Source: Pseudofrankia sp. DC12 (GTDB lineage: Bacteria; Actinomycetota; Actinomycetes; Frankiales; Frankiaceae). Taken from it: a stretch of 64,000 bases of DNA. The stretch covers positions 5,828,430-5,892,429 of the forward strand of contig NZ_KQ031391.1 of the NCBI RefSeq assembly GCF_000966285.1, given 5' to 3'. Below, piece by piece: positions 5,824 to 59,372 of this stretch (the stretch's first letter is position 1; the number at the start of each line of letters is the position of its first letter). A program made the position numbers and the translations under genes. The notes under the pieces are model-generated. The model made no database searches, had not been told where the DNA came from, and saw only the letters and a program-made list of their open reading frames with translations.

Positions 5824-7377
5824 GTGACGGCGACGGTGCCCGGCCGCGAGGCTCCAGGCCGAGCCGCGTCGCGTCGGGCTCGGGAGACACCAGAGCGGCC
5901 GGCGAGCCGCGCCATCGAGGTCGAAAACGATCTCTACCGGGCTCAGCTGCGCTGGGAGCGCCGTTACGTCAGGGTCCTGATCGCCTTCGACGCCGCGGCC
6001 TGCGTGCTCGCCGCGGGCGTCGCCTACGTGATCAGGTTCGGCCCGTTCGGGACCCGGCACTTCGACGCGGCCCGGGACACGTCGGAGTGGTACCTGCTGG
6101 CGCTGGTGCTGCTTCCGGTGGTCTGGGTCGTCTCGATGGCGCTGAACCGGGCCTACGAGCCGCGGTTCCTCGGCGGCGGGTCCGAGGAGTTCCGCCGGGT
6201 GATCAACGCCGCTGTCCGGGTCGTCGCCACCGTCTCCTACGCGACCAAGGCCGAGGTCGCCCGCGCCTACGTGCTCATCGTCTTCCCGGTCGCGATCCTG
6301 CTGTCGATGGTCGGCCGGATCGGTGGCCGGGGCATCCTGCACCGGCTGCGCAGACAGGGCCGGTGCATGCACCGGGTACTGGTCGTCGGTGCCGGCGAGT
6401 CGGCCGCGACCCTGGTCCGGCTCGCCCAGCGGGACCCGACCGCGGGCTGGTCGGTCGTCGGCGTCGTGCTGGACCGCCTGCCCGGCCGGCACAGCCACGA
6501 CCGCCCCGAACGCAGCGGCTTCGACCTGCTCGGCGTGCCGATCGTCGGCACCTCCGAGACCCTGCACACCTCGATCCGGGCGACCCGCGCCACCACCGTC
6601 GCGATCTCCCCGCAGATGGATGGCGAGACGCTGCAGCGAGTCCTGTGGAACCTGGAGGGTTCCGACGTCGACGTGCTGGTTTCCTCGGCGCTGACGGACG
6701 TCGTCGGGCCGCGGATCTCGATCCGTCCCGTCGCCGGCCTGCCGCTGCTGCACATCCGCGAGCCCGAGCTGACCGGCTCCCGGCGGGTCATGAAAATCCT
6801 GTTCGACCGCGCGGTGGCGCTCACCGTCGTCCTGCTGTTCTCCCCGCTGCTGATCGCACTGGCGCTCGCGGTCCGGCTCACCAGCCGAGGTCCGGCGATC
6901 TTCAAGCAGGTCCGGGTCGGCCGCGGCGGCGAGACGTTCAAGATGTACAAGTTCCGCTCGATGTACGTCGACGCCGAGGCCCGCCTCGCCGGTCTGCAGA
7001 CCAGCAACGAGGGCCAGGGGCTGCTGTTCAAGATGCGCGACGACCCTCGCGTCACCCGGGTCGGGAAGTTCCTGCGCAAGTGGTCGCTCGACGAGGTGCC
7101 ACAGCTGTTCAACGTGCTGAACGGCTCGATGTCGCTGGTCGGGCCGCGCCCGCCGCTGCCCCGCGAGGTCGCCCAGTACGAGGACGACGTGCACCGCCGG
7201 CTGATGGTCAAGCCCGGCCTGACCGGCCTGTGGCAGATCAGCGGGCGCTCCGACCTCAACTGGGACGAGTCGGTCCGCCTCGACCTGCGCTACGTCGAGA
7301 ACTGGACCCTGGCCATGGACTTCGTCATCCTCTGGCGCACCGTCTTCGCCGTCCTGCGCCGCGAAGGCGCCTACTAG
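5824..7377 (+). CDS. Exopolysaccharide polyprenyl-phosphate sugar-1-phosphate transferase
   Basis: This 517-residue membrane protein resembles WcaJ/CpsE enzymes, which start surface polysaccharide synthesis by moving a hexose-1-phosphate from a nucleotide sugar to undecaprenyl phosphate. The N-terminal half has several hydrophobic helices (about residues 45-70, 95-115 and 145-170) and a Rossmann-like segment, VLVVGAGESAATLVRLA. The C-terminal third is the bacterial sugar transferase domain: a membrane anchor (VALTVVLLFSPLLIALALA) followed by MYKFRSM, DEVPQLFNVL, SLVGPRP and KPGLTGLWQISGRS. GTG at 5824 follows GGACGGAG. No other polysaccharide genes are adjacent. Its stop shares the CTAG tetranucleotide with the stop of the convergent gene. 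Confidence 0.9.
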   Translation: MTATVPGREAPGRAASRRARETPERPASRAIEVENDLYRAQLRWERRYVRVLIAFDAAACVLAAGVAYVIRFGPFGTRHFDAARDTSEWYLLALVLLPVVWVVSMALNRAYEPRFLGGGSEEFRRVINAAVRVVATVSYATKAEVARAYVLIVFPVAILLSMVGRIGGRGILHRLRRQGRCMHRVLVVGAGESAATLVRLAQRDPTAGWSVVGVVLDRLPGRHSHDRPERSGFDLLGVPIVGTSETLHTSIRATRATTVAISPQMDGETLQRVLWNLEGSDVDVLVSSALTDVVGPRISIRPVAGLPLLHIREPELTGSRRVMKILFDRAVALTVVLLFSPLLIALALAVRLTSRGPAIFKQVRVGRGGETFKMYKFRSMYVDAEARLAGLQTSNEGQGLLFKMRDDPRVTRVGKFLRKWSLDEVPQLFNVLNGSMSLVGPRPPLPREVAQYEDDVHRRLMVKPGLTGLWQISGRSDLNWDESVRLDLRYVENWTLAMDFVILWRTVFAVLRREGAY

Positions 7378-8927
7378 TCCACCTGGGCGGCGGCTGTCTC
7401 GTAACGTCGCGTTGGTGATCGTGTCGCGCCGATGGCGGTGACCAGCCTCTGGTCGATCAGAGCCGTCAGCGCCGCCTTGACCCGGGCGCTGGTGAGCCCG
7501 GTCATGCTCTCGATTTCCCGGCGGGAAAGCGGCCGCCCGGCCGAACGAATCGACTCAAGGACGAACCAGTCTCGCTCGGCCGGAACCGTCGTGCGGGATA
7601 TCGATGCGGCGGCCGCGTTCGTGAGCGTCGCGTTGCCTCTGGCGGCCGCCGCGAGGTCGGCGCGCCGCGGGGGAGGCCCGCTGAGGGTCACCTCGAACCA
7701 GGAAATGTGGTCGGCGAACCGAGGTGCGGGCAGGCCGGCTGCCGACATCGCCCGGACCATGGTGCGAATGCCGGAGGCGCGGTTCTCGCAGACCGTTCTG
7801 CCTTCGCCCGGCACCTCGACGTCCTCCAGGAGCTTGAGCAGAAGGGCATTGCGCGCCGACGACAGGCCGGGATCGCCGAGCGAGCTCACGCGGACAGCAC
7901 CGAAGAGGCCCCCGGGGTTGCGCACAGTTATCCGGTCCGGGTAGACCTCGACCTGGACCTGCGTGCCAAGTGAGTACTGGCCGAGGTCACGGTGGACAAC
8001 CGCGTTCACGACCGCCTCCCGCAGTGCTTCCAGCGGGTACTCGTACACGGTTGACGCGCCGCCGCCCGGCGCGATGACCGTGCCGCGGCGGATCGCGCGG
8101 GCAAGCTGGACGAGGGTCTCGCGAACTTGGATCGGAACTGGGCCATCGAACGCCCGATTCTCGAGAAAACGCATGCCGGTCGCGATCTCGGCGCCGTCGA
8201 CAGTCGGGTACTCGACGAACGTGACCTCGACCTGCGGGAAGAAGTGCTGCGGGAACCGGCCGAAGCAGAGCAGGCCGGCCAGCGAGGGCACCGGACCGGT
8301 GTCGCCAGGCACCAGGACCCGGGTGGCCAGCAGAAGCTCACGATCGCCGAGATCTCGGAAAGCGAACGGGCGCTGCAGACGCAAGCGCTGAAGGTAGGGC
8401 CCGACGATCTCCGGCATCAGGTCGTCCGGTGTGGCGGACTGGACAGGGACGGTGTCGTCAACCGGCTGGCCGCGGGCCGCGACAAGAGCGTGGACCTCGG
8501 CTGGACCGAGCCGGTAGTCACCATCGCCTACCCGGACGTAGGAGCCGTTCGCCATACCGGCGCCGCGGTAGTAGCAGGGCTTGGCGCTCCGATCCAGCTC
8601 AGCGACCTCCGCTACGACGAGCTGGACTCCCTCGAACTCCATGATTTCGATCAGTGGCGCCAGCGGCGGCGCCATCTGGTCGCGCGCGAGATCGGCCAAG
8701 GAGTCTCGGACCTTCTTCGGGTCGGTCACGCCGGTCGAGGCGAAACCCTGACTCTCATCAAGTCCCAGCAGGATCACGCCGCCGCCCGGTGAGTTGGCAA
8801 ACGCTGACAGCGTCTCCCGTGTCGACTTCGGCAGCTCACGAGTAGCGCGCTTGGCCTCCACCCGCGCGAGATCCGTCCGCGAGTCGCGCAGCGTGCGGAC
8901 GAGCTCGGCGAGTTCGGCGGTCAGCAT
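7374..8927 (-). CDS. AlbA_2 (Schlafen-type) domain and GHKL-type ATPase, RecG-like regulator
   Basis: 517 residues. The N-terminus (about residues 15-150) fits an AlbA_2/divergent AAA_4 nucleic-acid-binding domain: a conserved acidic/basic start (VEAKRATRELPKS), then FANSPGGGVILLGLDE and YYRGAGMANGSYVRVGD. A second region (about 300-410) fits the HATPase_c_4 ATP-binding domain, with EALREAVVNAVVHRDL, DRITVRNPGGLFG and ENRASGIRTMV. The C-terminus looks like a winged helix (SRREIESMTGLTSARVKAALTAL). Proteins of this build are annotated as transcriptional regulators or RecG-like helicases; the actual function is unknown, and some occur in defence islands. No ribosome binding site is visible; TAAGCT lies 6 nt before the ATG, which suggests a leaderless message. 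Confidence 0.8.
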   Translation of the reverse strand: MLTAELAELVRTLRDSRTDLARVEAKRATRELPKSTRETLSAFANSPGGGVILLGLDESQGFASTGVTDPKKVRDSLADLARDQMAPPLAPLIEIMEFEGVQLVVAEVAELDRSAKPCYYRGAGMANGSYVRVGDGDYRLGPAEVHALVAARGQPVDDTVPVQSATPDDLMPEIVGPYLQRLRLQRPFAFRDLGDRELLLATRVLVPGDTGPVPSLAGLLCFGRFPQHFFPQVEVTFVEYPTVDGAEIATGMRFLENRAFDGPVPIQVRETLVQLARAIRRGTVIAPGGGASTVYEYPLEALREAVVNAVVHRDLGQYSLGTQVQVEVYPDRITVRNPGGLFGAVRVSSLGDPGLSSARNALLLKLLEDVEVPGEGRTVCENRASGIRTMVRAMSAAGLPAPRFADHISWFEVTLSGPPPRRADLAAAARGNATLTNAAAASISRTTVPAERDWFVLESIRSAGRPLSRREIESMTGLTSARVKAALTALIDQRLVTAIGATRSPTRRYETAAAQVD

Positions 8928-8933
8928 AGCGAG

Positions 8934-8939
8934 AGCTTA
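8934..8939 (-). promoter_or_regulatory. Putative -10 box of a leaderless promoter
   Basis: TAAGCT on the minus strand, 6 nt upstream of the ATG at 8927, where no Shine-Dalgarno sequence exists. No clear -35 element is visible. Confidence 0.35.
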
Positions 8940-8998
8940 GCTCTACTTGGCGAAGCTTGGCGACGTTCTGGGCAGCTTGGCGCCCGTTGACCCGTGGT

Positions 8999-9392
8999 TC
9001 AGGCCTGCGCACGGTCGGCTGGGCGGCCTGGCAGGCCGCGGCTGAGGACGAGCATCGCGACGGCCGCGGCGGCCAGCAGTCCGAACAGCCAGGTCAGCCG
9101 GTGTGCGCCGGCCCTCGCCTGAAGCAGGCCCAGCAGTGTGATGCCGAGCGAGGCCGAGAGCTGGACCGACATGAACACGGCCGTGGTCCCCTGCGGCTGC
9201 TCGACCGGCGTCAGCAGCCGGAACACGCTGGCGAACGTTGGCGCCGCCGTCGCGCCGATCCACTGCCAGTGGCCGCTCGCGAGCAGCAGGCCGCCGACCA
9301 CCGGGCCAGGGCCGGCGCGACGTTGATGATCATCGAGATTGTCCCAGGACCCGGCCGACCCGGTCCTGGTGAGCCAGCCGGGCCGCGAGCAT
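8999..9392 (-). pseudogene. Remnant of an MFS drug transporter
   Basis: Read on the minus strand, the region starts with a fragment like the MFS cytoplasmic loop (LAARLAHQDRVGRVL) that hits a stop. Another frame reads MIINVAPAL, and a further shift continues GPVVGGLLLASGHWQWIG. Restoring one G in the CTGGCCCGG run would join APAL to GPVVGG. The longest open piece (8999-9301) then jumps to sequence like the last helices (FMSVQLSASLGITLLGLLQ and TWLFGLLAAAAVAML). The 5' half of a normal 450-500 residue transporter is absent. I conclude that it is a truncated, frameshifted and internally deleted transporter. The divergent TetR gene is its probable former repressor. Confidence 0.65.
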
Positions 9393-10136: not shown

Positions 10137-10910
10137 TCAGCCGGCGGACGACTTCCGGATCGCTCCCAGCACCGTCTCGGCCAGCTCGGGCCGGCAGATC
10201 ACCAGGTCGGGCAGCAGCGGGTCAGGCTGGTTGTACCGCAGCGGGGAACCGTCGATCCGGGTCGCGTGCAGGCCCGCGGCGAGGGCGACCGCGACCGGGG
10301 CCGCCGAGTCCCATTCGTACTGGCCGCCGGCATGCAGGTAGACGTCGGCCTCGCCACGGATCACCGCGGAGGCCTTGGCGCCGGCGGAGCCCATCGGTAT
10401 GACGACTCCGCCGATCTCCGCGGTCACGTCGGTGACGAGCCTGGGTGCCCTGGTGCGGCTCGCGACCAGCCGTACCGGCCCGGCCGGCCCGGCTGGCGGC
10501 GGGGTGATCGTCGCGCTCGACAGCGTCACCCCGACGGCCGGCAGCGCGACCGCCCCGGCGACCAGCGCGCCGGCCTGCCAGAGCGCGACGTGGACCGCCC
10601 AGTCGGTGCGGCCCTCCTCGGCGAACTCGCGGGTGCCGTCGAGTGGGTCGACGATCCACACCCGGTCGGCCCCTAGGCGGACCGGGTCGTCGACGGCCTC
10701 CTCGGACAGGACGGCGTCCTTCGGGCGGTGCTGGGCTAGCGCCGCGGCGAGCAACCGCTGGGACCCCGCGTCGCCCGCGTCCTTGAGCGCTGGCCCGTCC
10801 GCGAAGCCCAGCTTGGCCCGGATCTCCAGGAGCCGTCGTCCGGCCTCTTCGGCCAGGTGGCTCGCGAGCTCGGCGTCGGACGGCTTGGCGGTCGTGGTGT
10901 CGATGCTCAC
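10137..10910 (-). CDS. cysQ: 3'(2'),5'-bisphosphate nucleotidase / inositol-phosphatase family (CysQ-like)
   Basis: 257 residues with the lithium-sensitive phosphatase signature: Glu70 in LSEE, and D88-P-L-D91-G-T in IVDPLDGTREF bind the metal ions, and a later YEWDSAAP supplies the third Asp. CysQ hydrolyses 3'-phosphoadenosine-5'-phosphate, a by-product of sulfate assimilation, to AMP. An inositol-monophosphatase role cannot be excluded from motifs alone. The start is GTG at 10910, reading VSIDTTTAKPSD. An ATP-sulfurylase-like gene diverges from it, which supports a sulfate-metabolism context. It converges with the TetR gene across a 90-bp gap. Confidence 0.82.
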   Translation of the reverse strand: MSIDTTTAKPSDAELASHLAEEAGRRLLEIRAKLGFADGPALKDAGDAGSQRLLAAALAQHRPKDAVLSEEAVDDPVRLGADRVWIVDPLDGTREFAEEGRTDWAVHVALWQAGALVAGAVALPAVGVTLSSATITPPPAGPAGPVRLVASRTRAPRLVTDVTAEIGGVVIPMGSAGAKASAVIRGEADVYLHAGGQYEWDSAAPVAVALAAGLHATRIDGSPLRYNQPDPLLPDLVICRPELAETVLGAIRKSSAG

Positions 10911-11098
10911 CGTCCTGAGTCTATGGCAGAGGTCTGCCGCGAATCGCGAGAATGGCGCGGCCCGGCTGGACTGCGCGGTCGGGGCCATCCTGCCGCATGC
11001 GGGGAATCCGGCGCTGGGCAGTGGGCGGCGGCGGGCCGCGACGTCCGGCCGGCTGACGACGGCCCGGCATAGCTGATCAGGACGGCAGGCTGGTCGGC

Positions 11099-12337
11099 AT
11101 GGGGAGCTGGTCGGCACGGCGAGCCATCGTCGTCGGACGGGCCGTCCGGTTGCGGGACGGTTACGGTCCGAAGGTGCCCATCCGTTGCCCCGTGCTCGTC
11201 GACGAGGACCGCGCCGCCGAGCTGGCAGCCGCCTCGGCCGGCTGGCCGTCGGCCCGGCTGACCCGCGCGCAGCTCGCCGATCTGGAGCTGTTGCTGCTCG
11301 GCGCGTTCGGGCCGGCGCCGAGCTACCCGGAGGACACCCTGCGCGACGGCTTGCGGCTGCCGTCCCTGGTAGTGCCGGCGCGGGAGGCGGCGGGTCTTGG
11401 CGCGGGCGACGCGTTGGCATTGCGCGAGCCAACGGGTGAGCTCGTCGCGGCGCTCCGAGTCGCGGGCGTACGCCGCCGTGGTGGCCCGGTGGACGCCGAC
11501 AAGGAGCGCACGGCGGCGCTGGCGCGGACGGCGAGCCGGGTGGAGCCTGACCGGCAGCCGGAGCCCAGCGGCCGGGCCCGGCTGGTGGGCACGGTCGCCG
11601 GGCTCCGGCTGCCGAGCCACCCCGACTACCCGTCGCTGCGGCTGGGCCCCATCGAGCTGCGCGCGGCCCTCGCCGAGCTTGGCTGGCTGCGCCCCGGCCG
11701 GTCGGCACCCTGGGCGGTCTGGGCCGACGGCCTCCTGCACACGGCGGACATCGCCCGGATCCGTGCCCTCACCCGGCAGGGCAAGTACTGCGTCGTGCTC
11801 GCTCCCGTCGGCGGGGCCGACCCGGCGGACCGGCGTTACCAGCTACGGGTGCGCGCACTGCTCGCGGCCCTCGACGCGCTCGACGAGCCAGTCCGCCCGA
11901 CCGAGGCGACCCTGGCGGCCGCCCCCCTCGCGGCCGAGGCCACCGGCGCGCCGGTGGCGCCACCCACGCGCACACCGACTCGGGTCGGCTCGGGCCAACC
12001 GGCACACGCGCTGCTGGTCCTGGTCCCGGTGGTGCCGAGCCCCGAGCTGGCGGCGCCTCGGGAGCCGGGGCTGTCAGCGACCTCCCCGCGCGGGGCCGCG
12101 ACCGGTGACGACACCGGCACTGCGGCCCGGGCCGCCGAGCTGAGCGCGCTGCGGGCCCATCTGGCCGAGTTCTACGGTCTGGGCGGCAGCCTCACCGGCC
12201 CGGCGCTCGGTGCCCCAGGGCGCGGCGAGCTGGCCGCGCTGCTCACCGCGGGCAGGCCGATCCCCGCCGAGCTCACCCCGCCCGGGGTGGCCGCCGAGCT
12301 CGCCCGCGCCCACGCCGAGGGCTGGCTGCTCGGCTGA
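11099..12337 (+). CDS. Degenerate ATP-sulfurylase-like protein without catalytic motifs
   Basis: 412 residues. Residues 50-125 (LTRAQLADLELLLLGAF, LRLPSLVVP, GDALALREPTGELVAALRV) match the order of features in the PUA-like N-terminal domain of ATP sulfurylase. Residues 205-260 (AVWADGLLHTAD, VVLAPVGGADPADRRYQLRVRALLAAL) align with the catalytic-domain start, where active enzymes have QTRNPxHRAH and a PxxGxxKPGD motif. Here the Gln-x-Arg-Asn quartet is replaced by WADG and the second His by Asp217, and the later GRDHAG region is missing. No APS-kinase P-loop is present. It is probably catalytically dead, perhaps a regulatory or scaffold protein. A GTG start at 11174 is an alternative. The homology is recalled, not searched. 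Confidence 0.6.
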   Translation: MGSWSARRAIVVGRAVRLRDGYGPKVPIRCPVLVDEDRAAELAAASAGWPSARLTRAQLADLELLLLGAFGPAPSYPEDTLRDGLRLPSLVVPAREAAGLGAGDALALREPTGELVAALRVAGVRRRGGPVDADKERTAALARTASRVEPDRQPEPSGRARLVGTVAGLRLPSHPDYPSLRLGPIELRAALAELGWLRPGRSAPWAVWADGLLHTADIARIRALTRQGKYCVVLAPVGGADPADRRYQLRVRALLAALDALDEPVRPTEATLAAAPLAAEATGAPVAPPTRTPTRVGSGQPAHALLVLVPVVPSPELAAPREPGLSATSPRGAATGDDTGTAARAAELSALRAHLAEFYGLGGSLTGPALGAPGRGELAALLTAGRPIPAELTPPGVAAELARAHAEGWLLG

Positions 12338-13501: not shown

Positions 13502-15808
13502 TCATCGCGGCTGGGGGAGCGCCGGGAGGGCGTCGTTGTTCGCGACGATCGCGGGGCTGGCGAGCCAGCGCAGGTAGGCCGATCGCCGGGCCGGGGACAT
13601 CCGCTCCGGCGCCAGCGGCCGGCCGTCGGCGTCGAGGAAGTCATCCGCCGGGCCGGTGATGAAGCCGTCGACGCCCGGATCCCCGGTGAAGGTCCGGCGG
13701 ACGCCGGCCGCATCGGTCACCTCGACCGGCAGGATCGGGTCGTCGCCGCGTCTCAGCCAGACGGCTGTCGCCGACGCCCGGTAGGCCTCCTGCCAGCCGG
13801 GCAGGACGGTCGCCGCGGCTGCCACCCCGGCGATCGTCGCGAGCGCGTCGGCTCCGGGCCGCCCGTCCGGTCTTACCGCGTCGACGGCGGCAGCGACCGT
13901 CACTCCGACGGTGACGCCATAGAGGGTGCCGACCAGGTCGTCGACCTTGATGGCCTTGGCGATGGCGGCGAGCTGGTCGACCGCCAGGGCCGTCCGGTCC
14001 GCCTCGTCCTCGGCCGCCAGTTCGGCGCGCAGCGTCAGATTGGCGGCGGTGCGGGCCAGCGCCGTGAGGAAGAACGACACCGTGGCGGCCTGCTGAAGGT
14101 GGACGAGCGCGCGCGGGCTGGCCGGATAGGCGATCTGGCCGTCGCCGCGGTAGCCCCGGGTCGCAGCCCATCCGGACTGTTCGAGGTCGCCCGCCTGCCG
14201 CAGTGCGTCCGAGCCCAGAGCTGCCGCCCGCGGGCCGCCCGCGGCCAGAGCCTCCCCGAGCAGCGCCGCCCACAGCTCGGCTGGAATCCGGGCCCCCGCC
14301 GCAGGCCCGGCCAGGTGCGTCGACCAGGGCCCGCCCGCGCCGCCGCCAGTCGCGCGCCCGCCGGCCATGGCCGGCCAGGCCACGACCAGGCCTCGGCCTG
14401 AGGGGTCCCGCAGCGCGTCACCGGCGGGCAGCAGTGCCACGGCCGACCCGTAGAGCTCCGAGCGCCAGACGTGCAGCAGGTCGCCGATGGCGGCCCGCAG
14501 GCCGGTCGGGAGCGGCCAGGAGGTGTCCCGCCGCTGTCTGGGGTCGCTGTGGGTCACCTGGTATCGGTAGATCGTGAAGCCCAGGCGGGCGACGAAGGTC
14601 GCGGCGCCGGCCGGGTCGGCCCGGCGGGCATCGACTCCGCCGGCCCGGCCGACCAGGTACTCCCAGGCAAGGGGCACCTGGGCCGGGACGCCCGGCCTGA
14701 TCGGCGCAGGCAGGGCCGACAGGCGTGCGCCGGAGATCATCGCCTCCACGTGGTCGGCGGCGAACCGCGCGGCGAGTGTCGGCTCGTCCGCGATGGCCCG
14801 CAGCAGAGCGGCCGCGTACGCGGCCCGGTGCCGCCCCGCTGGATCAGAGCCCAGTAGTCCGACATCCCGCACGACCGGCGGGTGGCTGCCGACGCGTGCG
14901 CCGGGACCAGTGAGCGGCCCGTCGTGGGTGCGGTAGCGGCCGCCGGTGACGTCTGTCGTCGCGAAGAGGGCGTCGCCGAGCAGGCGCAGCGTGGCTGGGG
15001 CGAACCGACCGTGCGCGAGCAGCGGACCGAGCAGCGCCGTCTCGGCCTGGCCAGGTACGTCGTGGGTGTTGAGCCGGCTCAGCCAGGCCGCGGTGAGCCG
15101 CCCGGACTGGCTGAACGCCGCCAGTGCGGCCCCGAGCGTGGCTGTCAGGTCGCTGGCCAGGGCGGTGGGAAACCACCGGCCTGGGGCATCGGCGCGGGTA
15201 CGGTCGCCCCCGCGCGCGGGACCGACTCGGTAGCCGTGGACCGTCTCGGTGACCACGAACCCGCTCGCGCCGACGTGCTCGGCCAGGTGCAGCACGACGG
15301 CCAGCCGCGCTGGTCCGACGGCGTCGAGGACTCCAGCGGCGAAGTCCGGGTCACTCGCGGACGGACGCAGTTGGGCGGCGACGTCGGACAGCGACGCCAG
15401 GTCCGGTACTGGCGCGAGCGCGGCGCCCGCGAGCGCCAGCCCGAGCCGGGCACCGGCCGCCCGCGCCGCGCGGCTGTCACCGCCGAACGGGTCGGGCCGC
15501 AGCGTTACCGCGAGCCGCCCTCCGCTGCCGAGCTGAGCGCGGGTCCCGCTGGCGGCCGGCGCGCCGAGGCTCGAGTCGGCGGCCTGGACCAGCGCGATGC
15601 GGCGGGTGAGCGTCGTGGCCGATGCGTCGGCCCAGCCCGAGCCCGCGCTGAGCGCCGCGGCGGGATTCGCCGGCCAGCCGAGTGGTCCGAGCAGCGACAC
15701 CACGGTCCGCGCCCATCGACCCAGCAGGTCACGTAGGTCCCGCAGCCGCTGCGCCAGCACACGCGCCAGGGCTGGGTCGAGGACGACTCGTTCACTGGGG
15801 CCGGGCAT
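13502..15808 (-). CDS. Large Ala/Gly-rich protein, possible type VII secretion substrate or partner
   Basis: 768 residues. The ATG at 15808 lies 4 nt after the stop of the WXG-like gene, so the two are probably translationally coupled. The start reads MPGPSERVVLDPALARVLAQRL. Patches such as DPDFAAGVLDAVGPARLAVVL and TSWPLPTGLRAAIGDLL resemble large proteins (DUF6571-like) that sit beside small WXG proteins in other actinomycetes; this is from memory and tentative. A hydrophobic Gly/Ala stretch occurs near residues 620-645 (GTLYGVTVGVTVAAAVDAV). No known enzymatic motif is visible. It is followed downstream by the ligase gene after 30 bp. The coding frame is well supported by length and tight spacing; the function is not known. 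Confidence 0.7.
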   Translation of the reverse strand: MPGPSERVVLDPALARVLAQRLRDLRDLLGRWARTVVSLLGPLGWPANPAAALSAGSGWADASATTLTRRIALVQAADSSLGAPAASGTRAQLGSGGRLAVTLRPDPFGGDSRAARAAGARLGLALAGAALAPVPDLASLSDVAAQLRPSASDPDFAAGVLDAVGPARLAVVLHLAEHVGASGFVVTETVHGYRVGPARGGDRTRADAPGRWFPTALASDLTATLGAALAAFSQSGRLTAAWLSRLNTHDVPGQAETALLGPLLAHGRFAPATLRLLGDALFATTDVTGGRYRTHDGPLTGPGARVGSHPPVVRDVGLLGSDPAGRHRAAYAAALLRAIADEPTLAARFAADHVEAMISGARLSALPAPIRPGVPAQVPLAWEYLVGRAGGVDARRADPAGAATFVARLGFTIYRYQVTHSDPRQRRDTSWPLPTGLRAAIGDLLHVWRSELYGSAVALLPAGDALRDPSGRGLVVAWPAMAGGRATGGGAGGPWSTHLAGPAAGARIPAELWAALLGEALAAGGPRAAALGSDALRQAGDLEQSGWAATRGYRGDGQIAYPASPRALVHLQQAATVSFFLTALARTAANLTLRAELAAEDEADRTALAVDQLAAIAKAIKVDDLVGTLYGVTVGVTVAAAVDAVRPDGRPGADALATIAGVAAAATVLPGWQEAYRASATAVWLRRGDDPILPVEVTDAAGVRRTFTGDPGVDGFITGPADDFLDADGRPLAPERMSPARRSAYLRWLASPAIVANNDALPALPQPR

Positions 15809-15812
15809 CGCC

Positions 15813-16199
15813 TCAACGCCCGTCGCGCAGGAAGCCGAACGCGGCGTGCGGCCGGATGGCTCGAGGGTCGTCCAGCGTGACCCATTCCGGCTGGGAGGCC
15901 GCCGCGGCGGCGCAGTCCAGCGCCGTCTCCGCGAGCGCCCTCCCGATGGTGGTCCCCGTGCGGGCGAGCTCACCGGCCCAGCTGTCGGCCGCCCGGCCCG
16001 CCCACGCGCCGGCGTCCAGCGTCGCCGTGAGCCCGCTGAAGGCTGTCGCGATCTCGGCCGCGCCGCGGTCGAGGATGGCCGCGGCGGTCAGCAGTGCGCC
16101 GCGGCGCGCGTTGACGACCAGCCCGGCTGGTGCCGTGACGCCGCTTGGGCCCGAGGCCGGCCCCGCTGCCGTCCGCCCCACCGCCATCTGGCCTGTCAT
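15813..16199 (-). CDS. WXG100-like small helical protein
   Basis: 128 residues. The central region (about 33-100) is predominantly helical with two Trp-Ala-Gly elements, W66-A-G and W74-A-G, in the stretch AWAGRAADSWAGEL. This recalls the W-x-G turn between the two helices of WXG100/ESX secreted proteins, although this protein is slightly longer and has an Ala/Gly/Pro-rich N-terminus. The ATG start at 16199 is preceded by GGAGAGGGCGG. Its stop is 4 nt before the start of the 768-residue gene, so a two-gene operon is likely. No ESX secretion machinery gene (EccC ATPase, EccD) is in the window. The T7SS link is a structural inference, not a demonstrated homology. Confidence 0.6.
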   Translation of the reverse strand: MTGQMAVGRTAAGPASGPSGVTAPAGLVVNARRGALLTAAAILDRGAAEIATAFSGLTATLDAGAWAGRAADSWAGELARTGTTIGRALAETALDCAAAAASQPEWVTLDDPRAIRPHAAFGFLRDGR

Positions 16200-53890: not shown

Positions 53891-56584
53891 GTGCCCGACG
53901 CAGTCCCGGTGACCACCGGCGCCACGCTCCCGGCGTCCGGGCCCGCCAAGGGCCCGGCGCCGGAGCGACGCCGTGTGCCGCCCGGGACCGGCGCCGGCGC
54001 CGTGGCGGACGGGTCCGCCGCCGCGCGACCCGCCGAGGCAGCCGAGCAGGAGCACGCCCCCGAGCCCGCCACAGGCGCCCCGGCGAACGGCGGGAAGACA
54101 CTGGTCACGCCGTTGAACGGCGGCCCGGGTGGAGCCACTCCAGGTGCCCTGGCGGACGGCGGGCCGAGCCCCGAGTCACCCAGCTCCGGCAACGGTGCGG
54201 CCGGGCCCTCGGTGGTCGCCATCGGCGGCGGGCTGCTCGCGGGCGGCGGGGTGCTCGCCGCGGGCCGGCTGGCCGGGCCGGGGGAGCTTCCCGAGGACGG
54301 CTCCCCGGTGCCACCCCGCCTGGGCCACGAGTCGCCGCCGGTGCCGCGGCGGCTGCGGGCCCGGCTCTCCCGGCTCTCGGCGCACCGCGCCACCCCGCCG
54401 TCGGCGCTCGACCCGGTGATCCGCGGCCTGGTCGCCAACCACCCGAAGGCTGACACCGGCCCCGTCCAGCTGGCCTTCCAGGTCGCCGACGCCGCGCACG
54501 CCGGCCAGGTCCGGGCCTCCGGCCACCCCTACATCACGCATCCGATCGCCGTCGCCGGCATCCTCGCCGACCTGGGCATGGACATCCCCACCCTGTGCGC
54601 CGCGCTGCTGCACGACACCCTCGAGCAGACGACGCTCACCGTCGAGCAGATCAGCGAGCAGTTCGGCGACCAGGTCGCGCTCATCGTCGACGCGGTCAGC
54701 CGGTTGCAGAAGGTCAACGCCGGCGAGATGGCCCAGGCGGAGATGATCCGCCGCATGGTGATCGCGATGGCCCGCGACCCGCGCGCGCTCGTCGTCAAGC
54801 TCGCCGACCGGCTGCACAACATGCGCACACTGCGCTTCCTGCCCGAGCACCGGCAGGAGCGCAAGGCCCGCCAGACCCTCGAGGTGTACGCGCCGCTGGC
54901 GCACCGGCTCGGGATGAACTCACTGAAGTGGGAGCTGGAGGATCTCTCGTTCGCCGCGCTCTACCCGAAGCGCTACGACGAGATCGTCCGGCTCGTCGCC
55001 GACCGGGCGCCCAGCAGGGACGTCTACCTCGACGACGTCACCGCGCACGTGCAGGGCTACCTGGCGGCGGCCGGGATCGAGTCGGTCGTGTCCGGCCGGC
55101 CCAAGCACTACTACTCGATCTACCAGAAGATGGTCGTGCGCGGCCGGTCCTTCGACGACATCTACGACCTGGTCGGCATCAGGGTGCTGGTCGACTCGGT
55201 CCGGGACTGCTACGCGGCGCTGGGCACCGTCCACGCGAACTGGAAGCCGATCCCGGGCCGGTTCAAGGATTACATCGCGATGCCCAAGTACAACATGTAC
55301 CAGTCGCTGCACACGACCGTGATCGGCCCGGAGGGCAAGCCGGTCGAGCTGCAGATCCGCACGCACGGGATGCACAACCGGGCCGAGTACGGCATCGCCG
55401 CCCACTGGAAGTACAAGGAGGACGGCCGCACCGCCGGCCGCCGCCGCGCCGCCGACCCGGACCTGGCCAGCTGGCTGCGCCAGATCCTCGACTGGCAGCG
55501 CGAGTCCGCCGACCCGGGCGAGTTCCTCGACAGCCTGCGCTTCGAGGCGCCGGCCGACGAGGTCTTCGTGTTCACCCCGAAGGGCGACGTCATCCCGCTG
55601 CCCGCCGGCTCGACCCCGGTCGACTTCGCCTACGCGGTCCACACCGACGTCGGCAACCAGTGCGTCGGCGCGCGGATCAACGGGCGGCTCGTCGCCCTGG
55701 ACACCGCGCTCGACAACGGCGACACCGTGGAGATCTTCACGTCGCGGGCGCAGTCCGCCGGTCCCAGCGAGGACTGGCTGACCTTCGTCCGGTCGTCCCG
55801 GGCCCGCTCGAAGATCCGCCAGTGGCACGCGCGGGAGCGCCGCGAGGACGCCGTCGTCGCCGGCCGGGACGCCATCGCGCGCACCCTGCGCCGCCACGGC
55901 CTGCCGCTGACCAGGCTGATGACCGGTGAGGGCCTGCTGACGCTGGCCAAGGAGCTCGGCTACACCGACGTCAGCGCGCTGTACGCCGGGGTGGGGGAGA
56001 ACAACCTCAGCGCGCAGGCCGTGGTGAACCGGCTGCTGACCGCGATGGGCAGCCCGGAGGCGACCGAGGAGGACGTCGCCGACGTCGTCCTGCCGATCCG
56101 CCCGCTGCGCCGCTCCACCGGCGACCCGGGCGTGCTGGTCTCCGGAACCGCCGACATCTGGGTGAAGCTGGCCAGGTGCTGTACGCCGATGCCGGGCGAC
56201 GAGATCGCCGGCCTGGTGACGAGGGGCCGGGGCGTGTCGGTGCACCGCGCGGACTGCGCCAACGTCGGCGACGTCAGCTCGCCGGTGGCCGACCGCTTCG
56301 TCGACGTCGAATGGGCCCCGTCGTCCGGCTCGGTATTCCTGGTGGTGATCCAGGTCGAGGCGATGGACCGGGCGAAGCTGCTGTCGGACGTGACCCGGGT
56401 GCTGTCCGATCATCACGTCAACATCCTGTCCGCGTCGGTGACGACGAACCGCGAGCAGGTGGCGATCAGCCGGTTCACCTTCGAGATGGGGGACGCCAAG
56501 CACCTCGGCCAGGTTCTGGCCGCGGTCCGGCGGATCGACGGTGTCTATGACTGTTTCCGTGTCACGTCTGGCATACAGGGCTAG
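53891..56584 (+). CDS. rel: RelA/SpoT homologue 1: (p)ppGpp synthetase with altered hydrolase motif
   Basis: 897 residues. After a disordered N-terminus (1-180) come the HD domain (about 188-340), synthetase (about 395-510), TGS (about 552-615), a zinc-finger-like CCTPMPGD region and a C-terminal ACT domain. The synthetase motifs are complete: R403-P-K-H, S409, [13 protein letters not shown] with Asp426, YQSLHTT, Glu486 in VELQIRT and [12 protein letters not shown]. In the HD domain, the usual HDTVEDT is HDTLEQT (241-247), so the Asp of the catalytic Glu-Asp pair is Gln246; LVDGVTKL has also become IVDAVSRL. This predicts a synthetase with weak or no hydrolase. GTG at 53891 follows AGGAG. Placement after apt marks it as the ancestral rel position. 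Confidence 0.95.
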
Positions 56585-56672: not shown

Positions 56673-59372
56673 ATGGACGCTGGGGCGCGGGCAGCACTGC
56701 CAGCCGGTGGCAGTCTCTCGCCGGACGTCGCGGCCCAGCAGGCCGTCGGTGACGAGGCCCGTCCGCTCGGCGCCGCCCGGACGGCCAGCCACCGGCTCGC
56801 CCATCTCGCCCGGCGGGTCGCCTCGTCCCGCGGCGGCCAGATCCCGCCGGAGCTGCGCGGCATCGTCGAGGCGCACCGCGACTTCCACCCGAAGGCCGAG
56901 ATCGGCGTGGTCATCCAGGCCTACCAGGCCGCCGAGCGGTACCACCACGGCCAGATGCGCCGCAGCGGAGACCCGTACATCGTCCATCCGCTGGGCGTCG
57001 CCGAGATCCTCGCCGAGCTCGGCGTCGACACCACGACGCTGATGGCGAGCCTGCTGCACGACACCGTCGAGGACACCGGGGCGACGCTCGACGGGCTGGC
57101 CGACGAGTTCGGCACCGAGGTCGCGAACCTGGTCGACGGCGTCACCAAGCTGGACAAGATGCGTTTCGGTGACGCCGCCGAGGCCGAGACGCTGCGCAAG
57201 CTGATCGTGGCGCTGGCCAAGGACTACCGGGTGCTGGTCATCAAGATCGCCGACCGGCTGCACAACATGCGCACCCTCGAGTTCATGTCGCCGCCGAAGC
57301 AGGCCAAGATCTCCCAGGTCACGCTGGAGATCCTCGCGCCGCTCGCGCACCGCCTCGGGGTCAGCGTGATCAAGCGTGAGCTGGAGGACCGGGCGTTCGC
57401 CGTCCTCGACCCGGACCAGTACCGCCGGACCCAGGAGCTCGTCGACGACCTGACCGCCGCCGAGCGGGAGAGCGGCCAGCTCGCGGCCGTCGTCGCCCGG
57501 CTGCGCGTCGGCCTCGCCGAGGCGAAGATCGACGGTACGGTGTCGGTCCGGCTCAGCCACCTGTTCTCGATCTACAAGCGGGCCCAGGACCGCGGCCGGC
57601 CGCCGCGGGACTACTACGACGTCGTCCGGGTGCTGGTCCTCGTCGAGGACGTCCGGGACTGCTACGCCGCCCTCGGCGTGATCCACGGCCTGTGGCGCCC
57701 GGTACCCGGCCGGCTGCGCGACTTCGTCGCGACTCCGAAGTTCAACATGTACCAGTCGCTGCACACCACGGTCACCGACAGCACCGGGCACGCCGTCGAC
57801 ATCCAGATCCGCACCCCGCAGATGCACCTGCTGGCCGAGACCGGCATCGTCGCCCGCCCGGTTGGCGAGGGCGCGGACGGTGCCCGGCTGGAGGGGCTGT
57901 CGTGGCTGCACAGCCTGCTGGACTGGGAGGGCGACGCGAAGGACCCCGGCGAGTTCCTGGAGTCGCTGTCGAGCGACCTGGACTCCGACGAGGTGCTGGC
58001 GTTCACCCCGAAGGGCAAGGCGATCGCGCTGCCGGCCCGGTCGTCGCCGGTCGACGTGGCCTACGCGGTGCACACCGACGTCGGCCACCGGGCGATCGGA
58101 GCCCGGGTCAACGGCCGTCTGGTGCCGTTGCACACGCGCCTGCGCAACGGTGACGTGGTCGAGATCCTCACCTCGAACCTGCCGCACGCCGGGCCGTCGG
58201 AGGACTGGCTGTCGTTCGTGAAGACGGCGCGGGCCCGGGTACGGATTCGCCGCCGCCTCGCCCGCGGCCGGCGCGAGCCGGTCGAGCCGGCCACCGGCAC
58301 CCGGCCCAGCCCCGCGCCGGAGGCCGCCCTGTCGGAGGGCGCGGCGCCCGCGCGGCGCTCGGCCGAGACCGCGGCGGCCGCGGAGGTGAATACCACGGCA
58401 CCGGAGGCGTCCGCCGACACGAGCGGCCAGCCGGATGGCGCCGCCCCAGCGGAACGCGCCGGCACACGCGAGCTGGCCGCGACCGATGCCGCCCCGACGG
58501 CCTCCACGGTCAGCCTCGGGGCCTCGGGTGCCGCCGGAGGCGAACCCGTGGTCAGCCTGTCCGCCGACCCGGCAGCGCCGGCCTCCGGGCCTCCCAGGGA
58601 CGGTAGGGCGGTCGCGGACGGCCGTAGGACAGCCACGTCGTGCCTGGCCGCCGGGACGCCGTCGGTCGATGTCCGGGCCCAACTGGCCGAGCTCGGCGCG
58701 GCGGGTACGAGCCACGCGGCCCCCGCGACGACGGCCGCGCGGCTGGCCGCGGAAGCCGGTCCGGCCGTCGCCGGCGGGGCGGCGACGGCCCAGCTGGGAG
58801 CCGAGACCACGAGGCCACCGGCGCCGGGCGCCGGTGGGCGCCGGTCAAGGCCGGCCCCGGCCTCGGAGGTGGGCCGCCGACCGACACCGGCATGGGCCGG
58901 TGTGGCGTCGCTGGACGGGCGCCCGGATGCCCCGGTACGGATCGCCCGCTGCTGTCTTCCGCTGCCCGGCGACGAGCTCATCGGCTTCGTGACCCACCAC
59001 GGCGCCCACCATCCGGCGGTGACGCTGCATCGCCAGGAGTGCGCGAACGCCCGGCCGGGCGGGACGGCGGGGCCGGTACGGGAGCCGGTCGGGGTCCTGC
59101 ACTGGGACGTGCCGCTCGCGCACTCCTTCCCGGCGGAGATCGCCGTCGAGGCGTTCGACCGGTACGGCCTGCTCGCCGATATCACCGAGGTGCTCTCGGA
59201 CACCGCCGCCGGCCTGCGCGCCGCGTCGACCTCGACCTCCGAGGACCGGGTCGCGCACGCCCGTTTCACCGTCGAGGTGACCGGGCCGCGCCAGCTCGAC
59301 GAGGTGCTGGCCGCCGTCCGCGGGGTCGGCGGCGTCTACGACTGTTATCGAGCCTGTCAGACGGCCTCGTAG
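56673..59372 (+). CDS. RelA/SpoT homologue 2: intact hydrolase, degenerate synthetase
   Basis: 899 residues. The HD domain (about 78-230) is canonical: HHGQMRRSGDPYIVHP, H129-D-T-V-E133-D134-T, VDGVTKLDKM and IADRLHNMR. The synthetase domain is eroded: the RPKH motif is R293-L-S-H, so the catalytic Lys is Ser295; the GIR of DLVGIRVL is replaced by RVL; Glu of the QIRT motif is Asp376; and [12 protein letters not shown] is now AETGIVARPVGE. TGS follows (about 444-505), then about 200 residues of low-complexity Ala/Pro/Glu sequence, then CCLPLPGDELIGFV and an ACT domain. This predicts a dedicated (p)ppGpp hydrolase. ATG at 56673 is preceded by CGGAGGGCAGGGG. It is separated from rel1 by an 88-bp leader region. 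Confidence 0.92.
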   Translation: MDAGARAALPAGGSLSPDVAAQQAVGDEARPLGAARTASHRLAHLARRVASSRGGQIPPELRGIVEAHRDFHPKAEIGVVIQAYQAAERYHHGQMRRSGDPYIVHPLGVAEILAELGVDTTTLMASLLHDTVEDTGATLDGLADEFGTEVANLVDGVTKLDKMRFGDAAEAETLRKLIVALAKDYRVLVIKIADRLHNMRTLEFMSPPKQAKISQVTLEILAPLAHRLGVSVIKRELEDRAFAVLDPDQYRRTQELVDDLTAAERESGQLAAVVARLRVGLAEAKIDGTVSVRLSHLFSIYKRAQDRGRPPRDYYDVVRVLVLVEDVRDCYAALGVIHGLWRPVPGRLRDFVATPKFNMYQSLHTTVTDSTGHAVDIQIRTPQMHLLAETGIVARPVGEGADGARLEGLSWLHSLLDWEGDAKDPGEFLESLSSDLDSDEVLAFTPKGKAIALPARSSPVDVAYAVHTDVGHRAIGARVNGRLVPLHTRLRNGDVVEILTSNLPHAGPSEDWLSFVKTARARVRIRRRLARGRREPVEPATGTRPSPAPEAALSEGAAPARRSAETAAAAEVNTTAPEASADTSGQPDGAAPAERAGTRELAATDAAPTASTVSLGASGAAGGEPVVSLSADPAAPASGPPRDGRAVADGRRTATSCLAAGTPSVDVRAQLAELGAAGTSHAAPATTAARLAAEAGPAVAGGAATAQLGAETTRPPAPGAGGRRSRPAPASEVGRRPTPAWAGVASLDGRPDAPVRIARCCLPLPGDELIGFVTHHGAHHPAVTLHRQECANARPGGTAGPVREPVGVLHWDVPLAHSFPAEIAVEAFDRYGLLADITEVLSDTAAGLRAASTSTSEDRVAHARFTVEVTGPRQLDEVLAAVRGVGGVYDCYRACQTAS

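Follow-up and report, generated by a model that had tools for sequence, protein, structure and literature searches.

The window, by which we mean the whole stretch of 64,000 nucleotides analysed here, contains an open reading frame on the plus strand (11099-12337) which represents a real gene, with an orthologue in each of the eight genomes of the window's genus (Pseudofrankia, judged by its named members) and in most of the family Frankiaceae. It is oriented divergently from a gene for a cysQ-type 3'(2'),5'-bisphosphate nucleotidase (Table 1), which confirms the phosphatase neighbour named in an earlier description of this DNA made from its letters alone (hereafter the sequence-only reading). 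The proposed search for the same pairing in other genomes showed it to be present in nearly all members, the exceptions being two Parafrankia loci without a cysQ match in the stretch examined. The frame had previously been taken to begin with the ATG at 11099. Because a TACGGT motif is conserved ahead of a GTG codon in the relatives, and because the ATG lies inside a segment without a counterpart in either of the two closest relatives (locus L031 of genome G002 and locus L077 of genome G001), we rejected this start after comparing the upstream DNA and regard the GTG at 11174 as the probable start. The TACGGT motif looks like the -10 box of a leaderless transcript and may act as part of a promoter. 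Throughout the eight genomes of the genus, the gene has neither stops nor frameshifts.

Table 1. Features of the pseudo-sulfurylase locus, in positions of the window.
Feature	Position	Strand	Evidence or remark
Divergent cysQ-type 3'(2'),5'-bisphosphate nucleotidase gene, putative GTG start	10137..10910	-	TIGR01331 E 3.7e-27 (below cut-off), Pfam Inositol_P, conserved pairing
Window-specific segment of 119 nt, contains ATG 11099	10996..11114	+	Intergenic alignment with L031 and L077, which lack it; edges approximate
TACGGT, starts 12 nt upstream of GTG 11174	11162..11167	+	Conserved in Pseudofrankia, Frankia and related genera (upstream DNA compared)
Pseudo-sulfurylase gene, 387 aa from the probable start GTG 11174	11174..12337	+	Homology and start context conserved in relatives, NF004040 match, fold match to 3cr8
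PUA-like N-terminal domain of sulfurylase, residues 33-123	11195..11467	+	Sub-threshold Pfam PUA_2; TIGR00339/NF004040
Former active-site loop WAVWADGLLHTAD, residues 205-217	11711..11749	+	QTRN-P-L-H-R-A-H in active enzymes; alignment to L059
VVLAPVGGADPADRRYQLRVR block, residues 232-252	11792..11854	+	Matches corresponding block of active enzymes (alignment to L059)
C-terminal end of sulfurylase domain, ...TGPALGAPGRGELAALLTAGRPIPAELTPPGVAAELARA	12152..12310	+	Orthologue comparison, alignment to L059
HAEGWLLG, last eight residues of the former APS kinase	12311..12334	+	Compare L004 ...YLHAEGWLLP, L005 ...HLRAEGWLLA

Some further genes of the window were recorded in their own right. A bacterial sugar transferase gene of the exopolysaccharide-initiating type (5824-7377) lies near the pseudo-sulfurylase gene, and in many genomes (L036-L048, L062, L068, L071 and the distant, intact locus L059) such a gene adjoins the sulfurylase-like/APS-kinase gene or lies close to it; the two may be linked by PAPS supply for a sulfated polysaccharide. 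The sugar transferase gene is adjoined by one for a Schlafen/AlbA_2 and RecG-C-like ATP-binding protein (7374-8927). The stretch at 13502-15973 codes for a fast-evolving protein of about 800 aa without Pfam match, which is conserved beside a DNA ligase gene in Frankiaceae. Two genes of the RelA/SpoT family stand in tandem (53891-56584 and 56673-59372), the second of which fits the model much less well in its synthetase region (1.6e-23 vs. 1.6e-43) and may have specialised or degenerated.

The Pfam and NCBIfam models alone gave sub-threshold matches that would have left the pseudo-sulfurylase unnamed, and the comparison with orthologues was therefore needed. The match to NCBIfam NF004040 (bifunctional Sat/APS kinase; residues 32-283, E 2.9e-14) reached 52.5 bits against a curated cut-off of 669 bits, those to PF01747 (16.4 vs. 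24.3 bits) and TIGR00339 (19.8 vs. 323 bits) likewise fell short, and the Pfam matches to PUA_2 (E 1.2e-4) and ATP-sulfurylase (E 6e-3) were both under their cut-offs. Solved structures were also matched by sequence (PDB 3cr8, E 1.8e-6; 1i2d, E 4.5e-7), and together with the NF004040 match these values place the two blocks that had been noticed in ATP sulfurylase order far beyond chance. We built an AlphaFold2 model from the family alignment, which is of moderate confidence (pLDDT 69, pTM 0.71) and has the APS kinase of T. denitrificans, 3cr8, as its best match (Foldseek 1.7e-14; Z 23.0, rmsd 3.5 over 278 residues). ATP sulfurylases match the model at Z 17-23 and unrelated folds at Z 8 or less, indicating a sulfurylase fold with the corresponding domain order. 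The profile and structure searches, which had been named beforehand as the way to refute a relation to ATP sulfurylase, thus found that relation.

We compared the active site with that of L059, an intact Sat-APSK of a different actinobacterial family. The QTRN-PLHRAH of this enzyme reads WADG-LLHTAD in the window protein, in which the catalytic Gln, Arg and Asn of QTRN are replaced and the second His has become Asp217 (HxxH to HxxD), exactly as the sequence-only reading had stated. No Frankiaceae member retains QxRN or the second His, and His214, the first His of HxxH, hardly varies across the family. The GRDHAG motif, whose region had been described as missing, is indeed absent from the window protein; GPALGA(PG) stands at residues 367-374 where the motif might have been, and the alignment is ambiguous between a deletion of GRDHAG and its change into this stretch. 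The family retains the very end of the sulfurylase domain, where LLTAGRPIPAELTPPGVAAEL matches the block ..L..G..iPewftpP.V..eLrr. Judged by its homology and its lost motifs, the protein is a catalytically dead ATP-sulfurylase homologue, and its first designation as such was right. The rewritten loop WAVWADGLLHTAD is the most conserved 13-residue window of the sulfurylase-like domain family-wide, which argues that the site has been repurposed, either structurally or functionally.

Most orthologues extend well over a hundred residues beyond the end of the window protein, and this extra part is an APS kinase. In Frankia, Parafrankia and one further Frankiaceae genus the gene has an intact kinase at its C-terminal end, and each of the 21 fusions that could be read outside the window's genus keeps the motifs that we scored (P-loop GLSGSGKST, DGDxxR, DRxxNxRRIG, RDRKGLYAKAR and FTGVSDPYE), except for one D-to-E exchange in L012. 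Within the genus the kinase is altered in all eight genomes. Binding residues are lost in G004, G005 and G006, all three of which have EGLY in place of KGLY and two of which have DDD in place of DGD. The P-loop is destroyed in F. nepalensis (L004) and in MAG HOG45C (L008), and no kinase at all is present in the window genome, G001 and G002 (loci including L002, L003 and L031). The E-values of the Pfam APS_kinase model run from 2e-55 in Frankia (L048) and 8e-52 in L005 to 4e-23 in L004 and 4e-8 in L008. Only the last eight residues of the domain, without a P-loop, are left in the window clade: the end of the sulfurylase domain (...ELARA in the window, ELDRA in G001 and G002) runs in frame into HAEGWLLG, with the junction of a deletion of about 180 residues lying just before the latter. 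The three genomes with the deletion form a single branch of the tree with 100/100 support. The window protein is 66-72% identical to the full-length members of its genus, which together with the shared cysQ pairing and the tree establishes orthology.

Relatives with a kinase, half-decayed intermediates and a deletion junction were thus all found, and they strongly support what had been offered earlier as one option among several, a remnant of a sulfurylase/APS-kinase fusion. Descent from a fusion of a dead sulfurylase with an APS kinase, followed by excision of the kinase, is almost certain from these sequence comparisons. The comparison shows that the gene of the Frankiaceae ancestor, divergent from cysQ, joined a dead ATP-sulfurylase domain to an APS kinase that still worked. 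The kinase of the window's genus, which has CysN-CysC fusions elsewhere in the genome, first lost substrate-binding residues and then, in some species, the P-loop, and the whole kinase was removed in frame in the window's clade, leaving a free-standing pseudo-sulfurylase of 387 residues.

The Frankia locus is a sulfate-activation cluster, in which the sat-like/apsK gene is divergent from cysQ-cysD-cysN (in L074, 4226-6112 on the minus strand and 6130-6960, 7148-8062 and 8062-9306 on the plus strand). No APS kinase other than the fusion kinase was found in Frankia (twelve matching genomes of genus g6). The CysN open frames examined in genus g6 are short (420-467 aa) and lack a kinase domain. 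The window's genus has lost cysD and cysN from the locus and contains CysNC fusions elsewhere, with one to five CysN copies per genome. One APS kinase over the cut-off was found in the window genome, located within a CysNC (1167230-1167778) directly after CysD, and no leftover kinase was detected elsewhere in this genome beyond the CysNC and one weak P-loop match. CysNC redundancy permitted the loss of the fusion kinase but does not by itself explain it, because Parafrankia also contains CysNC and still keeps intact fusion kinases; we therefore rejected the second kinase as the only cause. The family member G011 contains CysNC without any pseudo-sulfurylase or fusion gene, indicating that CysNC does not generally need a pseudo-sulfurylase. 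The genomes G001, G002, G003, G005 and G006 of the window's genus carry three to five CysN copies each (in G001, three with identical scores), which is an unusually high number for sulfate-activating enzymes.

The window, L031 and L077 share the deletion, and all their divergence from one another came later. Pairwise dN/dS values of the window against L031 and L077, which come from three genomes, a simple method and very GC-rich DNA, were 0.147 and 0.147 for the pseudo-sulfurylase, 0.156 and 0.152 for cysQ, 0.18 and 0.19 for the TetR gene and 0.22 and 0.23 for the ligase gene; we quote NG86 rates because YN00 failed for distant pairs through saturation. The values for the pseudo-sulfurylase within the deletion clade lie at 0.13-0.15, on par with the adjacent cysQ, with a codon bootstrap interval of 0.09-0.23, and the substitutions at codon positions 1/2/3 number 23/12/88 against L031 and 23/14/84 against L077. 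The sulfurylase domain of full-length members shows 0.15-0.32, and the protein of the window clade is thus held at least as tightly. The decayed kinases reach 0.5-0.7 in pairs with L004 or L008, versus 0.1-0.2 for most intact kinases. Such a low dN/dS after the deletion indicates that the protein still does something, and it is very probable from these rates that the doubly dead protein has been under purifying selection since the deletion and has retained a function. This would probably be a non-catalytic job, e.g., helping or tuning a partner enzyme, and the sensor or scaffold suggested in the sequence-only reading may be of this kind.

The best explanation overall, to which we assign a probability of roughly 0.6, is a fusion remnant stripped of its kinase, maintained by selection and acting by protein contact in trans. 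That the gene is instead a slowly decaying leftover without present function, open only for lack of time since the kinase was lost, might be suggested by the missing kinase of the window clade, the clearly decayed ones of L004 and L008 and the lack of any remaining catalytic residue. This is nevertheless very unlikely, since the post-deletion dN/dS equals that of cysQ, the frame is undamaged throughout the genus, and the synonymous divergence within the deletion clade (0.3 with NG86 and about 0.6 with YN00) suffices to break an unconstrained frame of 387 codons. An ATP sulfurylase or other nucleotidyltransferase that still works with an altered active site is extremely improbable. The model retains a nucleotidyltransferase-like fold and His214 is conserved, but the family-wide loss of QxRN and the second His, the absence of GRDHAG from the window protein, the presence of CysD and CysNC in the genome, and the lost activity that goes with similar motif losses in the T. 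denitrificans and Entamoeba proteins all speak against catalysis.

The main alternative to protein contact is a sulfonucleotide sensor, in which the rewritten pocket would bind APS, PAPS or PAP and report the pool to cysQ or to CysD/CysNC. Fungal ATP sulfurylase offers a parallel, as its PAPS-binding kinase-like domain reports in cis, and both the constant pairing with a PAP phosphatase gene and the exceptional conservation of the former active-site loop would fit such a role. However, active enzymes bind ATP and sulfate through residues that are replaced here, namely Gln, Arg and Asn of QxRN, the second His and GRDHAG. In addition, no DNA-binding or output domain was detected in the window protein, and the loop is equally conserved in members that are still kinase fusions, so that its conservation may be structural; we consider a sensor unlikely. 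We favour a role by protein contact because the dead domain contacts APS kinase domains in both characterised relatives. In EhAPSK of E. histolytica the domain raises kinase activity by touching the opposite protomer transiently (PMC13213808), and it contacts the kinase of neighbouring protomers in TdAPSK of T. denitrificans, where it is proposed to stabilise the hexamer, according to the account of that enzyme in PMC13213808. By analogy, we tentatively propose that the freed domain may stabilise or stimulate the APS kinase domain of CysNC in trans. Whether the pseudo-sulfurylase freed by the in-frame deletion has become a regulatory or scaffold subunit in trans of the unrelated CysN-CysC complex is doubtful; if true, a domain fusion would have been turned into a separate regulator by deletion.

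Among known systems, the two-domain APS kinase of T. denitrificans (3cr8; Gay et al. 2009, cited in PMC13213808) contains a dead sulfurylase-like domain of the same fold and is the best match of the window protein by sequence profile (3e-103) as well as by structure. Its architecture matches that of the Frankia and Parafrankia orthologues, and, as cited there, it keeps a working APS kinase domain, unlike the window protein. EhAPSK (PMC13213808) likewise has an N-terminal sulfurylase-like domain without sulfurylase activity, but this is fused to an APS kinase in a eukaryotic, mitosomal enzyme and has lost different motifs. Of the 30 actinomycete loci read, 27 code for an APS kinase preceded by a vestigial, dead PUA-like/sulfurylase domain; all 27 keep the P-loop and, unlike the window protein, none is kinase-less. 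Such enzymes, which lack QxRN and GRDHAG and have an intact P-loop (L065, L082-L108), occur widely across the class, and a fully intact bifunctional enzyme occurs in one sampled actinobacterial genome (L059). The bifunctional Sat/APS kinases of the NF004040 type (L059; Aquifex 2gks) share their domain order with the window protein and are the probable ancestor type, with both active sites intact where the window protein has lost both. Fungal ATP sulfurylase (1i2d, 1m8p) represents the reverse of the window protein's dead sulfurylase, combining an active sulfurylase with a dead kinase-like half, and there too a non-catalytic domain has been kept after losing its activity. The literature searched contained no mention of Pseudofrankia together with sulfate adenylyltransferase and no description of a lost kinase whose dead partner domain was kept under selection, and the papers found on a sulfurylase-like domain on APS kinase concerned Entamoeba throughout. 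Dead-sulfurylase APS kinases are known, and the conserved, free-standing version without a kinase appears to be new. The intermediates surviving in one family lead from a bifunctional over a monofunctional to a non-catalytic yet selected protein. The T. denitrificans and Entamoeba enzymes raise the question of what a dead sulfurylase domain is used for, and here the kinase has been removed naturally, so that the domain can be tested alone.
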